Positions 48,667 to 56,709 of a DNA stretch of 64,000 bases are shown here, in pieces. The stretch lies in NCBI RefSeq assembly GCF_003855495.1, contig NZ_CP034086.1, positions 558,001 to 622,000 of the forward strand. Direction: 5' to 3'. The notes under the pieces are model-generated. The model searched no databases. It worked only from the letters and a program-made list of their open reading frames with translations, and was not told the DNA's origin. Made by a program: the position numbers and the translations under genes. The stretch comes from Methylocystis rosea. GTDB lineage: Bacteria; Pseudomonadota; Alphaproteobacteria; Rhizobiales; Beijerinckiaceae. Position 1 is the stretch's first letter. Each line of letters starts with the position of its first letter.

Positions 48667-48688
48667 CACGCGTGAGAATAAACGCTTA

Positions 48689-48800
48689 GAGCGCTTCCCG
48701 ATCACATCGAATCATGTGATCGATAAGGAATCGCTCAATCCAAACGTTGGAGCAGGTTCTCATCGAAAAAGTCTGTCAACTTTTTCGGAACCTGCTCTAG
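48689..48800. repeat. Intergenic repeat family D, copy 2
   Basis: AGAGCGCTTCCCGATCACAT, CATGTGATCGATAAGGAATC and the second hairpin CGAAAAAGTCTGTCAACTTTTTCG with AACCTGCTCTAG. It matches 44701-44811 apart from a few substitutions and small indels. The final CTA contains the complement of the TAG stop of the Tlde1 gene. Confidence 0.9.
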
Positions 48801-49861
48801 AGATGCGCGACGACGGCGAGCCGGCGAACCTCGCCGTTCTTATAAGCGCGCAGGAAGGCCTGATAGTCGCGGAACGACACGCAGCCGTTCGAATCGCCGT
48901 TCGGGCCGAGCATGTAGGTATGCGCGAGAAGGCCGGCGCGGCCGAAGATCGCGCCTTCGCCGCCGACCGGCGTGAGGCGCAGCGCCTCGACGCCATGGAA
49001 CAGCGCCTCGCGCGGCTTGAGATCGTAAACATGCGGCGGCGTCGCGCCGCGCATGCGCAAATGAACGTAGCGCGGATCGTCGAGATGTTCGCGCAGGCCG
49101 GAATGCGCCTCGAGTTTTGCGCCGCTGGGCAAATAGACCGTATGCGACGAGATGTCATAGACGGCGGTGTAGCGGTCGAAGCGCGCCGCAGGTCCGACGG
49201 CCGCGCCGGCCGCGCCGCCGAGAATGCCGGATTTCAGGTCGGAGAGCGTGCCGCCGTCCGGGGCCGCATAGGCGAGCGCCTGACCGCGCGGTTGCTGCTG
49301 ACGCGCCTCTTGCGCCGATTGCGCGGCGTCGCCGAGCCCGAAGAATCGCTCGAAGATCGAGCGGTCGTCCGGTCCAGAGCCCGGCACGACGGTCGTGCGC
49401 GCCATGCGGCGCAGCGAGCCTTCATAAAGGCCGCGATTGGCGACGGTGAGTTCGACCGGGCGGCGCGGCGGCAGCGGCGCGTCCTCCGCCGAGGCGACCT
49501 GCGCGCCGTCGACGTCCTGGCGCTCGGGAACGATGGCGCGCGGCGTTTGCGCCGCGGGCTGGATGCTGGCGTCAAGCGCGCCGCGCAGCGTCGGTTCAGC
49601 GAGCGCCAGCGTCTGCCGCCGGCCGCCGAGGCCGACGATGGCCCCGTATGGATTTTGCGCGATAGAGGCGCTCTGCCTGAGGGCCGCCGCGGCTGTCTCG
49701 GAGCTGGCGGTCGCCGGGCGCTGCGAGAGCGCCCACCACCCCGCCGACAGGCTCACCGCCAGCGCAACGCCGGCGATGACCAGATGAGACGAGTTCTTGC
49801 GAGAATAAATGCGACGATCCAAAGAAATGAAATCGATTGGCGCACCGATCCCTTGCATCAT
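48797..49861 (-). CDS. Tlde1/DUF2778-domain protein, membrane-anchored
   Basis: A 354-residue protein. A single membrane helix (LVIAGVALAVSLSAGWWAL, near 27-45) is followed by a long Ala/Pro-rich linker and a C-terminal DUF2778 domain (about 230-354). The domain runs YTAVYDISSHTVYLPSG, EAHSGLREHLDDP, TPPHVYDLKPREALFHG and ends GPNGDSNGCVSFRDYQAFL, with a Cys as in L,D-transpeptidase-like enzymes. Some Tlde1 proteins are type VI toxins, but here the N-terminal anchor and the absence of T6SS or immunity genes suggest a housekeeping cell-wall role. Confidence 0.82.
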   Translation of the reverse strand: MMQGIGAPIDFISLDRRIYSRKNSSHLVIAGVALAVSLSAGWWALSQRPATASSETAAAALRQSASIAQNPYGAIVGLGGRRQTLALAEPTLRGALDASIQPAAQTPRAIVPERQDVDGAQVASAEDAPLPPRRPVELTVANRGLYEGSLRRMARTTVVPGSGPDDRSIFERFFGLGDAAQSAQEARQQQPRGQALAYAAPDGGTLSDLKSGILGGAAGAAVGPAARFDRYTAVYDISSHTVYLPSGAKLEAHSGLREHLDDPRYVHLRMRGATPPHVYDLKPREALFHGVEALRLTPVGGEGAIFGRAGLLAHTYMLGPNGDSNGCVSFRDYQAFLRAYKNGEVRRLAVVAHL

Positions 49862-50229: not shown

Positions 50230-50973
50230 ATGAGCAACGCAATCGAAGGCAAGGTCGTCGCCATTACGGGCGCATCGAGCGGCATCGGCGAAGCGACGGC
50301 GCGCGATCTCGCCGCGCGCGGGGCCGCCGTCGTCCTCGGCGCGCGAAGACTCGAGCGGCTCGAGGCGATCGCCGGCGAACTCACCGCCGCTGGCGGAAAG
50401 GCGGTCGCCATCGCCGTGGACGTGACGAAGAAAGCCGAGGTCGACGCTTTCGTCGCCGGCGCGGTTCAGGCCTTCGGCCGGCTGGACGTCCTCATCAACA
50501 ACGCCGGGCTGATGGCGATCGCGCCGCTTTCGGAACGCCGCACGGATGAATGGGACCGGATGATCGACATCAACATCAAGGGCCTGCTCTATGGCGTCGC
50601 CGCCGCGCTGCCGGTGTTCGAGAAACAGGGCTCAGGCCATTTCATCAATATTTCCTCGGTCGCGGGCATAAAGGTGTTCAGCCCCGGCGGCACGGTCTAT
50701 AGCGGGACGAAATTCGCGGTCGCGGCGATCTCGGAAGGGCTGCGCCATGAAGTCGGCGGCAAGATCCGCACGACCGTCATCATGCCGGGCGCGGTCGACA
50801 CGGAATTGAAGACCGGGACGTCCGACGCGGCGAGCCGCAAATTCGTCGACGAATTTTATAAGCAGTCGATTCCGGCGGATTCAATCGCCCGCGCAATTCG
50901 CTATGCGATCGAGCAGCCGGCGGATGTGGACGTGAACCAGATTGTGGTGCGGCCGACCGTGCAGGAGTTTTGA
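50230..50973 (+). CDS. Short-chain dehydrogenase/reductase
   Basis: A classical SDR of 247 residues: VAITGASSGIGEATARDLAA (nucleotide-binding TGxxxGIG), ARRLERLEA (an Arg after strand 2, favouring NADP), NNAG near 90, catalytic Ser in NISSVAGIKV and YSGTK (Tyr-x-x-x-Lys). It resembles YdfG/serine-dehydrogenase-like SDRs; the substrate is not predictable. GGAGG lies nine bases before the ATG. It is the last gene before the accessory patch. Confidence 0.92.
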   Translation: MSNAIEGKVVAITGASSGIGEATARDLAARGAAVVLGARRLERLEAIAGELTAAGGKAVAIAVDVTKKAEVDAFVAGAVQAFGRLDVLINNAGLMAIAPLSERRTDEWDRMIDINIKGLLYGVAAALPVFEKQGSGHFINISSVAGIKVFSPGGTVYSGTKFAVAAISEGLRHEVGGKIRTTVIMPGAVDTELKTGTSDAASRKFVDEFYKQSIPADSIARAIRYAIEQPADVDVNQIVVRPTVQEF

Positions 50974-51244: not shown

Positions 51245-54136
51245 CTATGAGCGGTTGCCGCTGTTATTGCGGCGGTCGCCGTTCTCTCCAGAAACAGCGG
51301 CGGCGAGCATCTTGTAGCTGTAACCGTCCGGTTCGCCGATCAGCGCGTCCAGCCCATGAACATTTTCGAGCTCGGCTTCGTACGAGGCCTCGGCGGCCGC
51401 CTTGCTAAACATGGTGATGTCGCTTTCGACGGACAGCGCGACGCGGCTAGGGGACGGTGCCGCTGCGGCGTATGCTTCGAAATATTTGCGGCCCGTCGGG
51501 TCAAGCTCGGGGATGCGTAGGCCGAGGCGACCGCACGCAGCCTGCGCGGCTGCGAACTCGCTTCGGCATGTCGTCGCCGCAAGTTCGCGAAAGGCGCTGC
51601 CGAGTCCGGCGAGGGCAAGCCTGACATTGTTCGGAAGGAAGGGCGCCCGCCGGTCGTCCGCGAGCGACCGCGCTACGAGCCATACGTCCAGCCCCAAATC
51701 GCCTGCTGCCCCGGCCGAAACGCCCCATTCATAGAGGACGTCGCGGCGTCCGGGGAAGCGGGGCGCATGTTCGCGCATTAGCGCCAACGCCTCGCCCGGC
51801 TGTTCGGTGGCTCGGAGAATGTGGCTGTAATCGGTGAGCCGCAAGGGGTCGTCGCGATCTACCTCAAATAATGCCTTCGAAATTGCGCGAGCGATTGACC
51901 ATCGAACCGGACCAGCGTTCAGAAAGTGTCGTGCTAGGTCACGGTGCCAACTATTGATATCCTGGTTCCGTCCGCGATTTTTCAAGAATTCAGAAAGCGC
52001 AGACCGCGCAAGAAACGGATACCATCGATCAACTTCGTAACCGCTCTCGACTAGCCAGTCGCGTGCCGCCTCGGCGATCCGGCGATGGCGCGTCAGAACA
52101 TAGGTCGTTCCGCCATCGACCATGGCCTCGCTGCGAAGAACGCGGAGTGGGCCGCAATCGAGCCGCAACTCGTCGCAACGCAGCGCAAAGGCCAAGACGG
52201 TGCGGGACAGATATAGCTGGTTCTCCGCGTGCATCGCCGCGATCATGGCATAGATATCAAGCAGCGTTTTGTCGCCGACGCCGGGGGCCGAAACCCAGGG
52301 CGCCATCAGACGGGAGACGCGTTGGCGAAGCTCCTCGCCTTCGCGTGTCATTAGCAGCGCGCCGAGCAGTGAACCTTCTTCATGTTTCCCCGCAAGCTCG
52401 CGCGCGTTGTCGAGAAGTATCTTCGCCGCGCCTTCAGAAGTGTGGTTTTGCAGCCTGCCCATGGCGCCTCCGCCCCAAGCCGCCCACCCCTCGGCGATGC
52501 GACGCGCGTCTTCTTCGTCGAGGCCCACCAAACGCACGCGCCGGAAGTCCGCCACTCTCTGCCACATCTGATCGTTCAGCCCGCGGAGAACCCAATCGGC
52601 CTCGCGTGCTGCCAGGACGAAGTGCACATCCGTACGCACGTTGAAGCTGTGCAGGGCGCTAGGCAAGCCTGCGGCGACGTTTTCGGCGTCGTCTATTGTT
52701 ACAATCCAAGCATGGTCCGGCTTGGGCGGCATCAACTCCAGCCAGTTGCCGGGTAGTTCAGCGGTCGAGCTCTGGCGCCAAAGGCAGGTCCACGGCCGGA
52801 CACCTCGTAGCAAACCCGCGGCGGTTTGCAGCAGCGCCGCCGACTTTCCTTCCCCACCGGCACCCGTCAGCAAACGCGCGACGGGCCGAGGAGCGGCGTG
52901 ATGCGCCGCCTCGAAAGTGCGGACGAGACCGTCCACGATCTGCCGAGGACGAACGCCTGCGGCGGTAGCCGCCTCCCAGCGCGGAAAGCTACCGTTGAAC
53001 CAATCGGCCATTTCCTCGGTTGTGAGACGCTCGGCGGTCATCCGCGCAAGCTCGGCGGCGTCTATGATCCGCCATCCTTCGGGTGCGGGGACAATCGGCT
53101 GCTCGCTGAATAGCGAAGCTGCGGGCGGATTTTCGGGCTTCGGGCCAGGCAACGGATAGGCGTATGCGTCCCGCTTCGCGATTCGAAGCCGGGATGGAGC
53201 GGCGTCAGTGTCGAAAACGTACTCTCTGTGATCGTCGTTCCAGCGCAGCGGCTCGATGACCAGCCGACCGGTGGCCAAATTCGCCTCGCCCCACATGACG
53301 CCGTTGCGCCAGATCGGACTATCGCCAGCCTGGAAGCCGGAAGGCGCCTGGATAGCCAACGCGGACTGCATCGCGTCGCCTGATTTCTGTGCGCCGGAGC
53401 GGTGCAGATGGCCGTGCAAGTAGATCGCATTCGCCTGCTCGAGCCGTGACCGGATACGCTCCCCGTCAGACCAATCCTTTTCGCCGGTCATCGCCGCCAA
53501 TGGATGGTGGCCGATGACAATGATGAGACTCGGCGCCGTGTCCGAGGCCCTCTTAAGCGCTGCATCCACCATTGTTCGTCCGGCAGTAAGACGCCCCCAA
53601 TCCTCGTCGTCATGACAAAGCCAAGCAGTGTTGATGCCCACGACGGCAACGCGTTTGCCGTTGATCTCGCGGGTGGCGCATGCCGCCCCCATCTCGGACG
53701 CCAGCCAGTCCTCGCCCCAAGCCCCAAGGGCGTGTTCGAGCGTCCGGTAGGCTTCGAATCGCGGAAGGATCATGTCGACGCGCTTTTGACGTCCGTCCTC
53801 ATCGACTTGCTGGAACATGCGCTGCTGTTCGACATCCGTCATCCAGCTGCGTGGGTTGCCGGCGCGCTTTCGATCGACGTCATGATTGCCCGGAACGGTA
53901 AAAATCGGACAGTCCTTCGGGAGGGCGGCGCGCAAGGGATCTAGGAAGCGTTCGCGCAAGAGCCCGTATTCCGGGTTTGTCCCGGAAAACGCCAAATCGC
54001 CGGTGAAGAACACTATGTCCGGCTTCGCAGGTTGCTGCTTCACATTTCGGACGATGGCCTCGTACATGCCAACGCGGTGGAAACCTTCGCGCGAACATTC
54101 GTGCACGTCGGAAATATGCAGCCATCGAACCGACAA
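51245..54136 (-). CDS. Calcineurin-like phosphoesterase fused to STAND-like NTPase
   Basis: A protein of about 963 residues. The N-terminal metallophosphoesterase has every metal motif: ISDVH (10-12), GD (46-47), GNHD (83-86), GHH (209-211) and GHLH (242-245). After a linker come a P-loop GAGGEGKS (425-432), Walker B IVTIDDAE (about 479-485) and FVLAAR like a sensor Arg. The last 450 residues are helical and may be TPR-like (EALALMREHAPRFPGRRDV). This is the effector-plus-STAND plan of immune sensors; a defence role is inferred. TTG 54136 follows GAGGGGG at six bases; GTG 54199 is an alternative. Confidence 0.82.
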   Translation of the reverse strand: MSVRWLHISDVHECSREGFHRVGMYEAIVRNVKQQPAKPDIVFFTGDLAFSGTNPEYGLLRERFLDPLRAALPKDCPIFTVPGNHDVDRKRAGNPRSWMTDVEQQRMFQQVDEDGRQKRVDMILPRFEAYRTLEHALGAWGEDWLASEMGAACATREINGKRVAVVGINTAWLCHDDEDWGRLTAGRTMVDAALKRASDTAPSLIIVIGHHPLAAMTGEKDWSDGERIRSRLEQANAIYLHGHLHRSGAQKSGDAMQSALAIQAPSGFQAGDSPIWRNGVMWGEANLATGRLVIEPLRWNDDHREYVFDTDAAPSRLRIAKRDAYAYPLPGPKPENPPAASLFSEQPIVPAPEGWRIIDAAELARMTAERLTTEEMADWFNGSFPRWEAATAAGVRPRQIVDGLVRTFEAAHHAAPRPVARLLTGAGGEGKSAALLQTAAGLLRGVRPWTCLWRQSSTAELPGNWLELMPPKPDHAWIVTIDDAENVAAGLPSALHSFNVRTDVHFVLAAREADWVLRGLNDQMWQRVADFRRVRLVGLDEEDARRIAEGWAAWGGGAMGRLQNHTSEGAAKILLDNARELAGKHEEGSLLGALLMTREGEELRQRVSRLMAPWVSAPGVGDKTLLDIYAMIAAMHAENQLYLSRTVLAFALRCDELRLDCGPLRVLRSEAMVDGGTTYVLTRHRRIAEAARDWLVESGYEVDRWYPFLARSALSEFLKNRGRNQDINSWHRDLARHFLNAGPVRWSIARAISKALFEVDRDDPLRLTDYSHILRATEQPGEALALMREHAPRFPGRRDVLYEWGVSAGAAGDLGLDVWLVARSLADDRRAPFLPNNVRLALAGLGSAFRELAATTCRSEFAAAQAACGRLGLRIPELDPTGRKYFEAYAAAAPSPSRVALSVESDITMFSKAAAEASYEAELENVHGLDALIGEPDGYSYKMLAAAVSGENGDRRNNSGNRS

Positions 54137-54711
54137 AAGGCGCCCCCTCACGTCAAGAGGCACGTAAAGTGCAATATTTTTGCGTGTGGCGGAAGCCACA
54201 GGACCCCTCTATTCCGTTCCCTTTCCTTGCTGTGCGACGTGGCGGCGCCCAGTTCCGGCCTGTTGGCCTCCGGCCGCTTCCCGCCTAACTGGTGACTTGC
54301 CGGCGACGTTGGCGGCAGTCCTCTGTCCGCCGAGGGCTGACATGACCCTTCCATGTTGGAGATGTCGCCGATCGGTCGACAGTTCCCGTTGGACTCCGGA
54401 CCGATAGCGGTCATTGCGGAATCCTCTCGCGAACGTCCGATATCTGTTCGCAGATCAAGGTCAGCTTCTGGCGCTAAGCGGTCTCAACGGGGCCTTATAA
54501 AGCAGCCCTTCACTAACCGCGATCTTCCCGGCTACGGTGCGACCGTTGAAACCCGTGCTAAAAGTGGTCGCTACCGCGCAAACTCGGGCGCCAGAAGCGA
54601 CATTCGATTTTCGTTATCGATGGGCCTTTTATTTGGGTGCGTCCTTGGCCAGCAACCCAAACGATCACAACGCGGAAGCGATTAGGCGGCGAAAGGCTAA
54701 ACGAGAGCAGC
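54137..54711. other. Divergent control region of the accessory patch
   Basis: These 575 bases separate the divergent STAND and bestrophin genes. Short frames occur but none has a good start or a plausible product. CTTCTGGCGC (54465-54474) and GCGCCAGAAG (54588-54597) form an inverted repeat with a 113-base gap, perhaps the trace of an old insertion. I found no tRNA or attachment site. Confidence 0.45.
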
Positions 54712-55590
54712 ATGCTCAGGTACGACACAAAAGCGTGGTGGAAGCTTATCTTCCAGTTTCACGAGGGAGACACTCTAAGGACTCTCTTACCAAACATATC
54801 CATCGTCGCGCTGTTTACGTTACTAGTAGTGTACTGCAACTCCGGAATAATGCCGGGGTATCTAAAATATACAGCGACAGTTCATAACCTCTTTGGGTTC
54901 GTTATCTCGCTTTTGCTAGTGTTCAGAACCAACACCGCTTATGATCGATGGTGGGAGGGTCGGCGGCTTTGGGGTTCTCTCGTCAACACATCTCGAAATA
55001 TCGCACTAAAGTGTCATTCGTATTTGGACGCACAAGATCGCGTTAGAGCGACGATCGCTTTCGATATAGCGAATTTTGCTGACGTGCTCAAAGACCATCT
55101 GCGAGGTCAAGCAAGTGACATTCCGTACCCGGTGGACCATGCGCCGAGCCTCGCTGCAGAACAGCTATTCATGGACGTCGCAAATCTTAATCGACAGGGA
55201 TTGATTAGCGAAGTTCAGTTTTTGACGCTGAATGGCGACCTGACGGCGCTTTCAGATATATGCGGGGCATGTGAGCGCATTAAAAAAACGCCAATACCCT
55301 TTTCCTATCATGTTTTCATAAAGAAGTTTGTCTTCTTTTACATTATCAGCATGCCATTCGTTTTTGCGCCAGAGTTTGGTTATTGGACAATTTTGGTCAC
55401 GAGTTTCATGTTTTATGTTCTTGCAAGCCTTGAGACGTTAGCAGAAGAGATCGAGAATCCGTTTGGTATTGACACAAACGATCTACCGTTAGACGAGTTT
55501 AGCATCCTCATCAAAAAGAACGCCCATGAAATTCTGGTCAATTACCCGATTCACAAAAGCGCAGAGATGACGGCCACGACGTACTCATGA
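54712..55590 (+). CDS. Bestrophin-family (UPF0187) membrane channel
   Basis: A 292-residue protein with membrane segments near 30-48, 57-75 and two in 200-245. Family blocks are FRTNTAYDRWWEGRRLWG (about 76-93), TPIPFSYHVFIKKF and EEIENPFGIDTNDLPLDE near the C-terminus. Bestrophins form pentameric anion-selective channels; some bacterial members conduct cations. Codon use is AT-rich compared with the rest of the window, indicating transfer. It is divergent from the STAND protein gene; any functional link is speculative. Confidence 0.88.
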   Translation: MLRYDTKAWWKLIFQFHEGDTLRTLLPNISIVALFTLLVVYCNSGIMPGYLKYTATVHNLFGFVISLLLVFRTNTAYDRWWEGRRLWGSLVNTSRNIALKCHSYLDAQDRVRATIAFDIANFADVLKDHLRGQASDIPYPVDHAPSLAAEQLFMDVANLNRQGLISEVQFLTLNGDLTALSDICGACERIKKTPIPFSYHVFIKKFVFFYIISMPFVFAPEFGYWTILVTSFMFYVLASLETLAEEIENPFGIDTNDLPLDEFSILIKKNAHEILVNYPIHKSAEMTATTYS

Positions 55591-55776
55591 ACGCGGCGAC
55601 CCGGGTCCGAAAGCCGATGGTACAGCTGTGCGATGACCTTTTGTGTGTTGATGGATCTCGACGGGTCTGCTCTTGGCGCAACGAGGATATTCTCCCGCCT
55701 CGCCATCGGCGCAGCATGTCGTTGACCTGCGTTGGCCCCGCCAATAGCTTGCGCGCAACTCGTGCAGGATTTTCCC

Positions 55777-56709
55777 ATGCTCCCCGTCTCCCCCCATCTC
55801 TCCCCCATCCGCTCCTTCCAGGGGCTCATCCTCACCCTCCAAAACTTCTGGGCGGCGCAGGGCTGCGTCATTCTGCAGCCCTATGACATGGAGATGGGCG
55901 CGGGCACCTTTCACCCCGCCACGACGCTGCGCGCGCTCGGGCCAAAGCCGTGGCGCGCGGCCTATGCGCAGCCCTGCCGGCGCCCCAAGGACGGGCGCTA
56001 TGGCGAGAACCCCAATCGCCTGCAGCATTACTATCAGTTCCAGGTGATCCTCAAACCCTCGCCCCCCGATCTGCAGGAGCTGTATCTCGCGTCGCTCGCC
56101 GCGATAGGGATCGATCCGAAGCTCCATGACATCCGCTTCGTCGAGGACGATTGGGAAAGCCCGACGCTCGGCGCCTGGGGGCTCGGCTGGGAATGCTGGT
56201 GCGACGGCATGGAGGTCTCGCAGTTCACCTATTTCCAGCAGGTGGCGGGATTCGAATGCGCGCCGGTCGCCGGCGAACTCACCTATGGCTTGGAGCGTCT
56301 CGCCTGCTATCTGCAGGGCGTCGACAGCATCATGGAGCTGAATTTCAACGGCCGCGACGGCGACGAAAAAGTCACCTACGCCGACGTCTTCCTGCAGGCC
56401 GAGCAGGAATATTCGCGCCATAATTTCGAAGCCGCCGACACGGGCAAACTTTTTGAAGATTTCAAGGACGCCGAATCCGAATGCGAGCGCCTGCTGCATT
56501 TTGGCGCGGGCTCGGGCGACGAGATGCATCTCATGGCGCTGCCGGCCTATGACCAATGCATCAAGGCGAGCCACGCCTTCAATCTTCTCGACGCGCGCGG
56601 CGTGATCTCGGTTACCGAGCGGCAGAGCTATATTCTGCGCGTGCGCGAACTCGCCAAAGCCTGCGGCGCGGCCTGGCTGCGCACGGCGGGCGGCGGCGCG
56701 AACGGCTAG
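55777..56709 (+). CDS. glyQ: Glycyl-tRNA synthetase alpha subunit
   Basis: Catalytic subunit of the bacterial alpha2beta2 glycyl-tRNA synthetase. The 310-residue protein has [56 protein letters not shown] (class II motif 2 area) and [16 protein letters not shown] (motif 3). ATG 55777 follows AGGA at seven bases. glyS is not found in the following 8 kb of the window; the next plus-strand gene is a small unknown that may sit between glyQ and a distant glyS. Confidence 0.97.

Follow-up and report, generated by a model that had tools for sequence, protein, structure and literature searches.

Identification of a single-protein candidate antiphage receptor

Does the long minus-strand gene in a 64,000-nucleotide stretch of Methylocystis rosea contig NZ_CP034086.1 (the window, in which all positions below are counted) encode an antiphage receptor, and is that receptor of a kind already known? 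Its product, which we call MPP-nSTAND5, carries a calcineurin-like metallophosphoesterase followed by a STAND-type NTPase, and a sequence-only reading had proposed that it is a candidate undescribed immune system in which an N-terminal effector is joined to a STAND sensor. The protein resembles the immune receptors of animals and plants, of which it looks to be a bacterial relative. We consider it highly probable that MPP-nSTAND5 is a single-protein antiphage STAND receptor. The proposed architecture and its defense logic are supported by the domain order and the STAND profile and fold, by conserved catalytic and P-loop residues, by accessory status and a genomic slot shared with defense-type genes, and by shuffling of effector and sensor modules among relatives, all read from sequence or structure models.

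A conserved metallophosphoesterase joined to a STAND NTPase

The features of the gene are listed below, with residue numbers of the 963-residue protein; conservation was scored in an alignment of 74 rows, in which the window protein stands with 73 homologues of nearly full length, selected among the best 120 of 341 matches.

51245..54136, minus strand: MPP-nSTAND5 gene, 963 amino acids from a TTG start
54143..54149, minus strand: GAGGGGG, Shine-Dalgarno-like, 6 nucleotides upstream of the TTG; presumed role
53132..54136, minus strand: calcineurin-like metallophosphoesterase, presumed effector, residues 1-335 (PF00149, structure model, fold match, conserved metal ligands)
52586..53005, minus strand: nSTAND_NTPase5 (PF25199) core, residues 378-517 (E 1e-24)
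52841..52864, minus strand: Walker A motif GAGGEGKS, residues 425-432 (K431 in 74 of 74 rows)
52688..52696, minus strand: end of Walker B, IDD, residues 481-483 (D482 in 74 of 74 rows)
52037..52531, minus strand: helical STAND region, residues 536-700 (helices in the model; R683-H684 in 74 of 74 rows)
51269..52036, minus strand: helical C terminus, presumed sensor, residues 701-956 (models; lowest conservation)

The open reading frame (ORF) as a whole spans 51245..54199 on the minus strand, and an alternative GTG start at 54199 would give 984 amino acids. We prefer the TTG at 54136, because in the homologue alignment the consensus of the family, xxIRWLHLSD, starts there, and because the GAGGGGG element precedes it.

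The five calcineurin-like metal motifs that the sequence-only reading described (D10xH12, G46D47, G83NHD86, G209HH211, and G242HxH245) are borne out. PF00149 (Metallophos) matches residues 5-246 with 54.3 bits against a curated cutoff of 21.5 (E 3e-14), and the ligands are invariant or nearly so: D47, N84, H85, H210, H211, and H245 are present in all 74 rows, H243 and D86 in 73, and D10 and H12 in 70 of 70, with a gap in the remaining four. The NTPase core that it called complete is equally well preserved, with PF25199 scoring 87.5 bits against a curated cutoff of 34, and with K431 of the P-loop (G425AGGEGKS432), D482, and R511 each found in every row; the same profile is matched by all 50 proteins scanned (the window protein and 49 homologues; E up to 0.01). 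Mean pairwise identity is 0.46 and 0.42 on the phosphoesterase side (residues 1-250 and 251-335), 0.41 and 0.49 on the NTPase side (residues 355-535 and 536-700), and 0.36 and 0.27 in the C terminus (residues 701-895 and 896-950), so that the presumed sensor end is the most variable part of the protein. At three loci (L016, L030, and L038) the MPP-nSTAND5 homologue is broken into several ORFs, which are probably decayed genes or assembly errors.

Structure prediction agrees with these assignments. The STAND half was modeled with a pLDDT of 94.1 and a pTM of 0.90, and the P-loop domain, whose absence would have counted against the sequence-only reading, is modeled at high confidence. The first rows of the Foldseek search with this half are EfAvs5 (1.2e-9, the top match), SAMD9, a STAND-TPR protein, and AVAST5. 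We therefore assign the protein to the STAND NTPases on the basis of a P-loop core followed by a helical region, probably a winged helix within residues 536-700, in a STAND-like fold. The TM-scores behind this fold assignment are low, and its VIA score exceeds those of AAA+ rows by a modest margin. The C terminus, described previously as helical and possibly TPR-like, is indeed helical in both structure models; 'possibly TPR-like' is a reasonable description, in that TPR_19 matches 12 of the 50 proteins scanned, although the Pfam TPR models gave no match in the window protein. For the phosphoesterase, the closest folds include nucleotide phosphodiesterases. Each fold list was filled by one domain, and the absence of other families from it is uninformative. 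We also note PDB entry 9a6c (YydD-YydB), of which chain B is likely YydB of Bacillus subtilis; it is an integrative model from cross-linking and deep learning of two separate proteins, unlike the single window protein, and its listing gave no function.

Exchange of effector and sensor modules

Pfam family PF13271 is named DUF4062 below, in agreement with the source names of the matches. Among the best 120 of 778 matches to the phosphoesterase (residues 1-330), 12 lack PF25199, with 35 to 65% identity over the phosphoesterase. Their phosphoesterases are joined instead to NB-ARC and/or ClpX-type zinc fingers (P0094, P0096, and P0097), to another NTPase with a GKS motif read from its sequence (P0093), to TPRs (P0121), to nSTAND1 and ankyrins (P0122), or to unassigned tails (P0123, P0124, P0137, P0139, and P0141). 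In P0125, a phosphoesterase of this clade (50% identity) is fused, in place of PF25199, to a subtilisin-like peptidase domain (PF00082). Among the best 120 of 133 matches to the sensor (residues 345-963), 64 carry the phosphoesterase, 33 carry DUF4062, and one carries a pentapeptide repeat; the remaining 22, which include truncated proteins, lack an annotated N-terminal domain. Judged by these domain matches, both halves shuffle between partners.

DUF4062, the alternative N-terminal domain on the nSTAND5 sensor, is described in a 2026 preprint as a TIR-like NADase that acts against phage and is activated by the phage portal (PMC13174449). This likeness to the Swarozyc/DUF4062 NADases has limits: their effector is an NADase and not a phosphoesterase, and bacterial Swarozyc is described as having an 'auxiliary domain', with no mention of nSTAND5 in the sections consulted (PMC13174449). 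We lean toward nucleotides as the substrate, given that nucleotide phosphodiesterases are among the closest folds of the phosphoesterase and that the effector found on this sensor in other proteins is a reported NADase. The serious rival within the receptor interpretation is that the phosphoesterase is an Mre11/SbcD-like nuclease cutting phage or host DNA, which we regard as unlikely, although deserving of weight.

An accessory gene in a slot shared with defense-type genes

The sequence-only reading would have been contradicted by homologues residing consistently in core, non-mobile contexts with a housekeeping partner, and the gene is not core. None of 36 same-genus genomes searched (seven of them under 90% complete) holds MPP-nSTAND5, the sole same-genus match being a weak one (G024; 9.2e-4, residues 162-247), and among 61 genomes including its own the only real match is in its own genome. 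At the class level, two of 385 genomes match at 1e-30, its own included, the other over residues 353-891. Distant homologues were located at 45 loci, in records titled Proteobacteria, Cyanobacteria, Verrucomicrobia, Chloroflexi, Planctomycetota, Firmicutes, and Bacteroidota, with about a dozen of the 45 matching over the phosphoesterase alone. This patchy spread is the pattern expected of a horizontally moved gene. The G+C content at third codon positions (GC3) is 0.705 in MPP-nSTAND5 versus 0.79 to 0.86 in six neighbors (glyQ and the SDR, Tlde1, radical SAM, ChaC, and SMC genes). Carriage by a phage or plasmid was considered and rejected, with no phage match and no long plasmid match, and one scan of viral contigs gave no relative of MPP-nSTAND5.

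MPP-nSTAND5 and two other genes occupy a slot bordered by a Tlde1-domain gene on one side and glyQ on the other.

48797..49861, minus strand: Tlde1-domain gene, conserved left border of the slot (PF10908, 4.6e-28), found in all 12 relatives fetched
50230..50973, plus strand: short-chain dehydrogenase (SDR) gene, in the slot; of the 12 relatives, 2 have it whole and 6 in part, and in 4 it was not detected
54637..55590, plus strand: bestrophin-like gene, in the slot (PF25539, 2.6e-69; G+C content 0.47), probably separate cargo
55732..56709, plus strand: glyQ, conserved right border of the slot (PF02091, 1.4e-139), found in all 12 relatives fetched

When 9 kb of DNA was searched against 38 same-genus relatives, the flanks proved to be conserved and the middle variable, and we assessed the slot in 12 plus 10 of these relatives. 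In the 12 relatives fetched (L066 to L077), which have both flanks on one contig, neither MPP-nSTAND5 nor the bestrophin-like gene has a match at E 1e-5, and the Tlde1-glyQ intervals are 1.9 to 5.0 kb long with differing ORFs. Their contents, named by PADLOC labels without regard to system completeness, include NsnA (1.8e-58) adjoining a HEPN gene identified by Pfam (L066); PDC-M36A and PDC-M36B (L069); NsnA, NsnB, and NsnC (L071); HEC-01A and HEC-01B (L072); OloA and OloB (L074); PDC-S59 (L075); and an AAA protein with a partial Old/GajA match (2.8e-17) and an OLD-like TOPRIM domain (L076). An AAA protein in L067 has only a weak PADLOC match (0.00066). Defense-type cargo is thus clear in seven of the 12 relatives (six at 1e-20), and of 18 cargo proteins 11 reach 1e-20 or better against PADLOC, compared with six PADLOC families among the 68 ORFs far from distant homologues that are described below. 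The 18 were selected by eye in the 12 intervals and are not strictly matched to the automatically chosen ORF sets. The bestrophin and dehydrogenase of the window gave no PADLOC match. Nine of the ten further relatives have a Tlde1-like gene beside glyQ, about 0.1 to 0.3 kb away as estimated from alignment ends, which leaves no room for cargo; the tenth (G009) has about 22 kb of other genes between the two and counts neither for nor against the slot.

Several other features of the slot were observed. At E 0.01, neither Pfam nor PADLOC gives a match for the main ORFs of L068, L070, L073, and L077, which are candidates for new defense genes. In more distant same-genus genomes (L078, L080 to L082, and L084 to L088), two Tlde1-like genes stand in tandem, adjoining glyQ except in L078. 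The bestrophin-like gene has a G+C content of 0.47 and a GC3 of 0.53 in a neighborhood of about 63% G+C, and only weak matches, in two of 60 relatives searched. Positions 48682-48802 contain a repeat, about 115 bp long, that is dispersed as 92 to 97% identical copies at many places in its own and same-genus genomes.

The surroundings of distant homologues were compared at 17 loci flanked by 10 kb on either side, setting the two nearest against the two farthest ORFs (at least 180 amino acids) on each side; each set has 68 ORFs, chosen automatically, some of which may be spurious. At 1e-20 the near set matches 72 PADLOC families, and among the 25 listed are type I restriction and modification, DpdE, DpdF, LmuA, LmuB, ZorD, and PsyrT; the far set matches six families, all REase_I with one member each. 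The scans report families with member numbers and not individual proteins; counted as proteins, this corresponds to at least seven of 68 near and probably one of 68 far (Fisher p 0.06), values that rest on counting each named component of the near set once (REase_I, MTase_I, DpdE, DpdF, LmuA, LmuB, and PsyrT) and on assuming that the six REase_I families match one protein in the far set. Enrichment of defense genes near distant homologues is suggestive only.

STAND proteins also serve regulation, and a signaling or developmental ATPase unrelated to phage is the rival that these data address. A literature search found no defense assay of the MPP-nSTAND5 family, which leaves room for such a role, but absence from all 36 same-genus genomes, scatter over many phyla, a slot held in common with defense-type genes, and a sensor shared with DUF4062 make it improbable.

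Relationship to DS-8 and other known systems

The claim that the system is undescribed proved too strong. Its NTPase is a named Pfam family. In the DefensePredictor report, DS-8 is a single protein with a metallophosphatase and a NACHT domain that protects Escherichia coli against phage; changes of catalytic residues in either domain abolish defense, its substrate is given as unknown, and in DS-9 a related phosphatase domain works together with a protein of the HAD type (PMC13092281). Calcineurin domains were listed among predicted effectors of STAND NTPases in a 2021 eLife paper (PMC8195603). Given these two precedents, MPP-nSTAND5 is a variant of an already described kind.

By its sequence, it is distinct from DS-8 itself. 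The two are alike in being single proteins in which a STAND-type NTPase comes after a related N-terminal phosphoesterase (E 6e-23 over residues 7-272), and NF053861 (DS8_antiphage), the model for DS-8, is matched by every one of the 50 proteins scanned, as would be expected were the window protein simply a DS-8 orthologue and nothing new. We judge this still more improbable than a signaling role: DS-8 has NACHT, whereas the window protein has PF25199 and a different C terminus, its score is 80.6 bits against a cutoff of 790, and only positions 1-255 of 994 are matched. In eight genomes with homologues, matches end at positions 254-287 and none passes the cutoff. Membership in DS-8 was rejected on score and coverage, the phosphoesterase part alone matching.

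PADLOC includes Avs models. Searched at E up to 1, it matched only PDC-S60 and 'Effector' in the window protein, with no Avs profile among the matches. Avs5, the best Foldseek match of the STAND half, is similar in its order of N-terminal effector, STAND NTPase, and C-terminal region, but has a SIR2 effector and 12% identity in the Foldseek alignment. PDC-S60 is a candidate defense profile of 1,027 positions with a related phosphoesterase, of which only positions 2-246 match, so the protein does not belong to the profile as a whole. The literature search found no paper naming PDC-S60, and none naming PF25199, nSTAND5, or nSTAND_NTPase5.

Least probable of all is a two-gene system of MPP-nSTAND5 and the bestrophin-like channel, which share the slot in divergent orientation and are both missing from the 12 relatives fetched, but whose composition differs sharply (G+C content 0.47 versus 0.63); we rejected bestrophin as a partner, since none matches at E 1e-5 in the 45 distant loci holding relatives of MPP-nSTAND5.

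Proposed mechanism and implications

We propose that in the antiphage receptor the NTPase would keep the protein inactive at rest, until a component of the invader binds the variable helical C terminus. The NTPase may then exchange nucleotide and the protein oligomerize, which would cluster and switch on the N-terminal metallophosphoesterase. This would hydrolyze phosphate esters, with nucleotides more likely than nucleic acid, and phage growth would stop, the infected cell probably being sacrificed.

A broader model, which we advance tentatively and at somewhat less than even odds, is that nSTAND5 is a plug-in phage receptor, the same 600-residue module driving interchangeable effectors that destroy small molecules, either a DUF4062 NADase or a metallophosphoesterase that, by analogy, would deplete an essential nucleotide pool and thereby kill the infected cell by a route as yet biochemically undefined. 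DS-8 would then belong, as a single branch, to a larger class of phosphoesterase-STAND proteins in which NB-ARC, nSTAND1-ankyrin, and TPR sensors also occur. Within Methylocystis, the glyQ-side slot offers a genus-specific place to look for new defense genes. More generally, the kind of phosphoesterase-NACHT antiphage protein represented by DS-8 would be extended to a second, widely spread receptor family, and the domain matches show parts exchanged between families.
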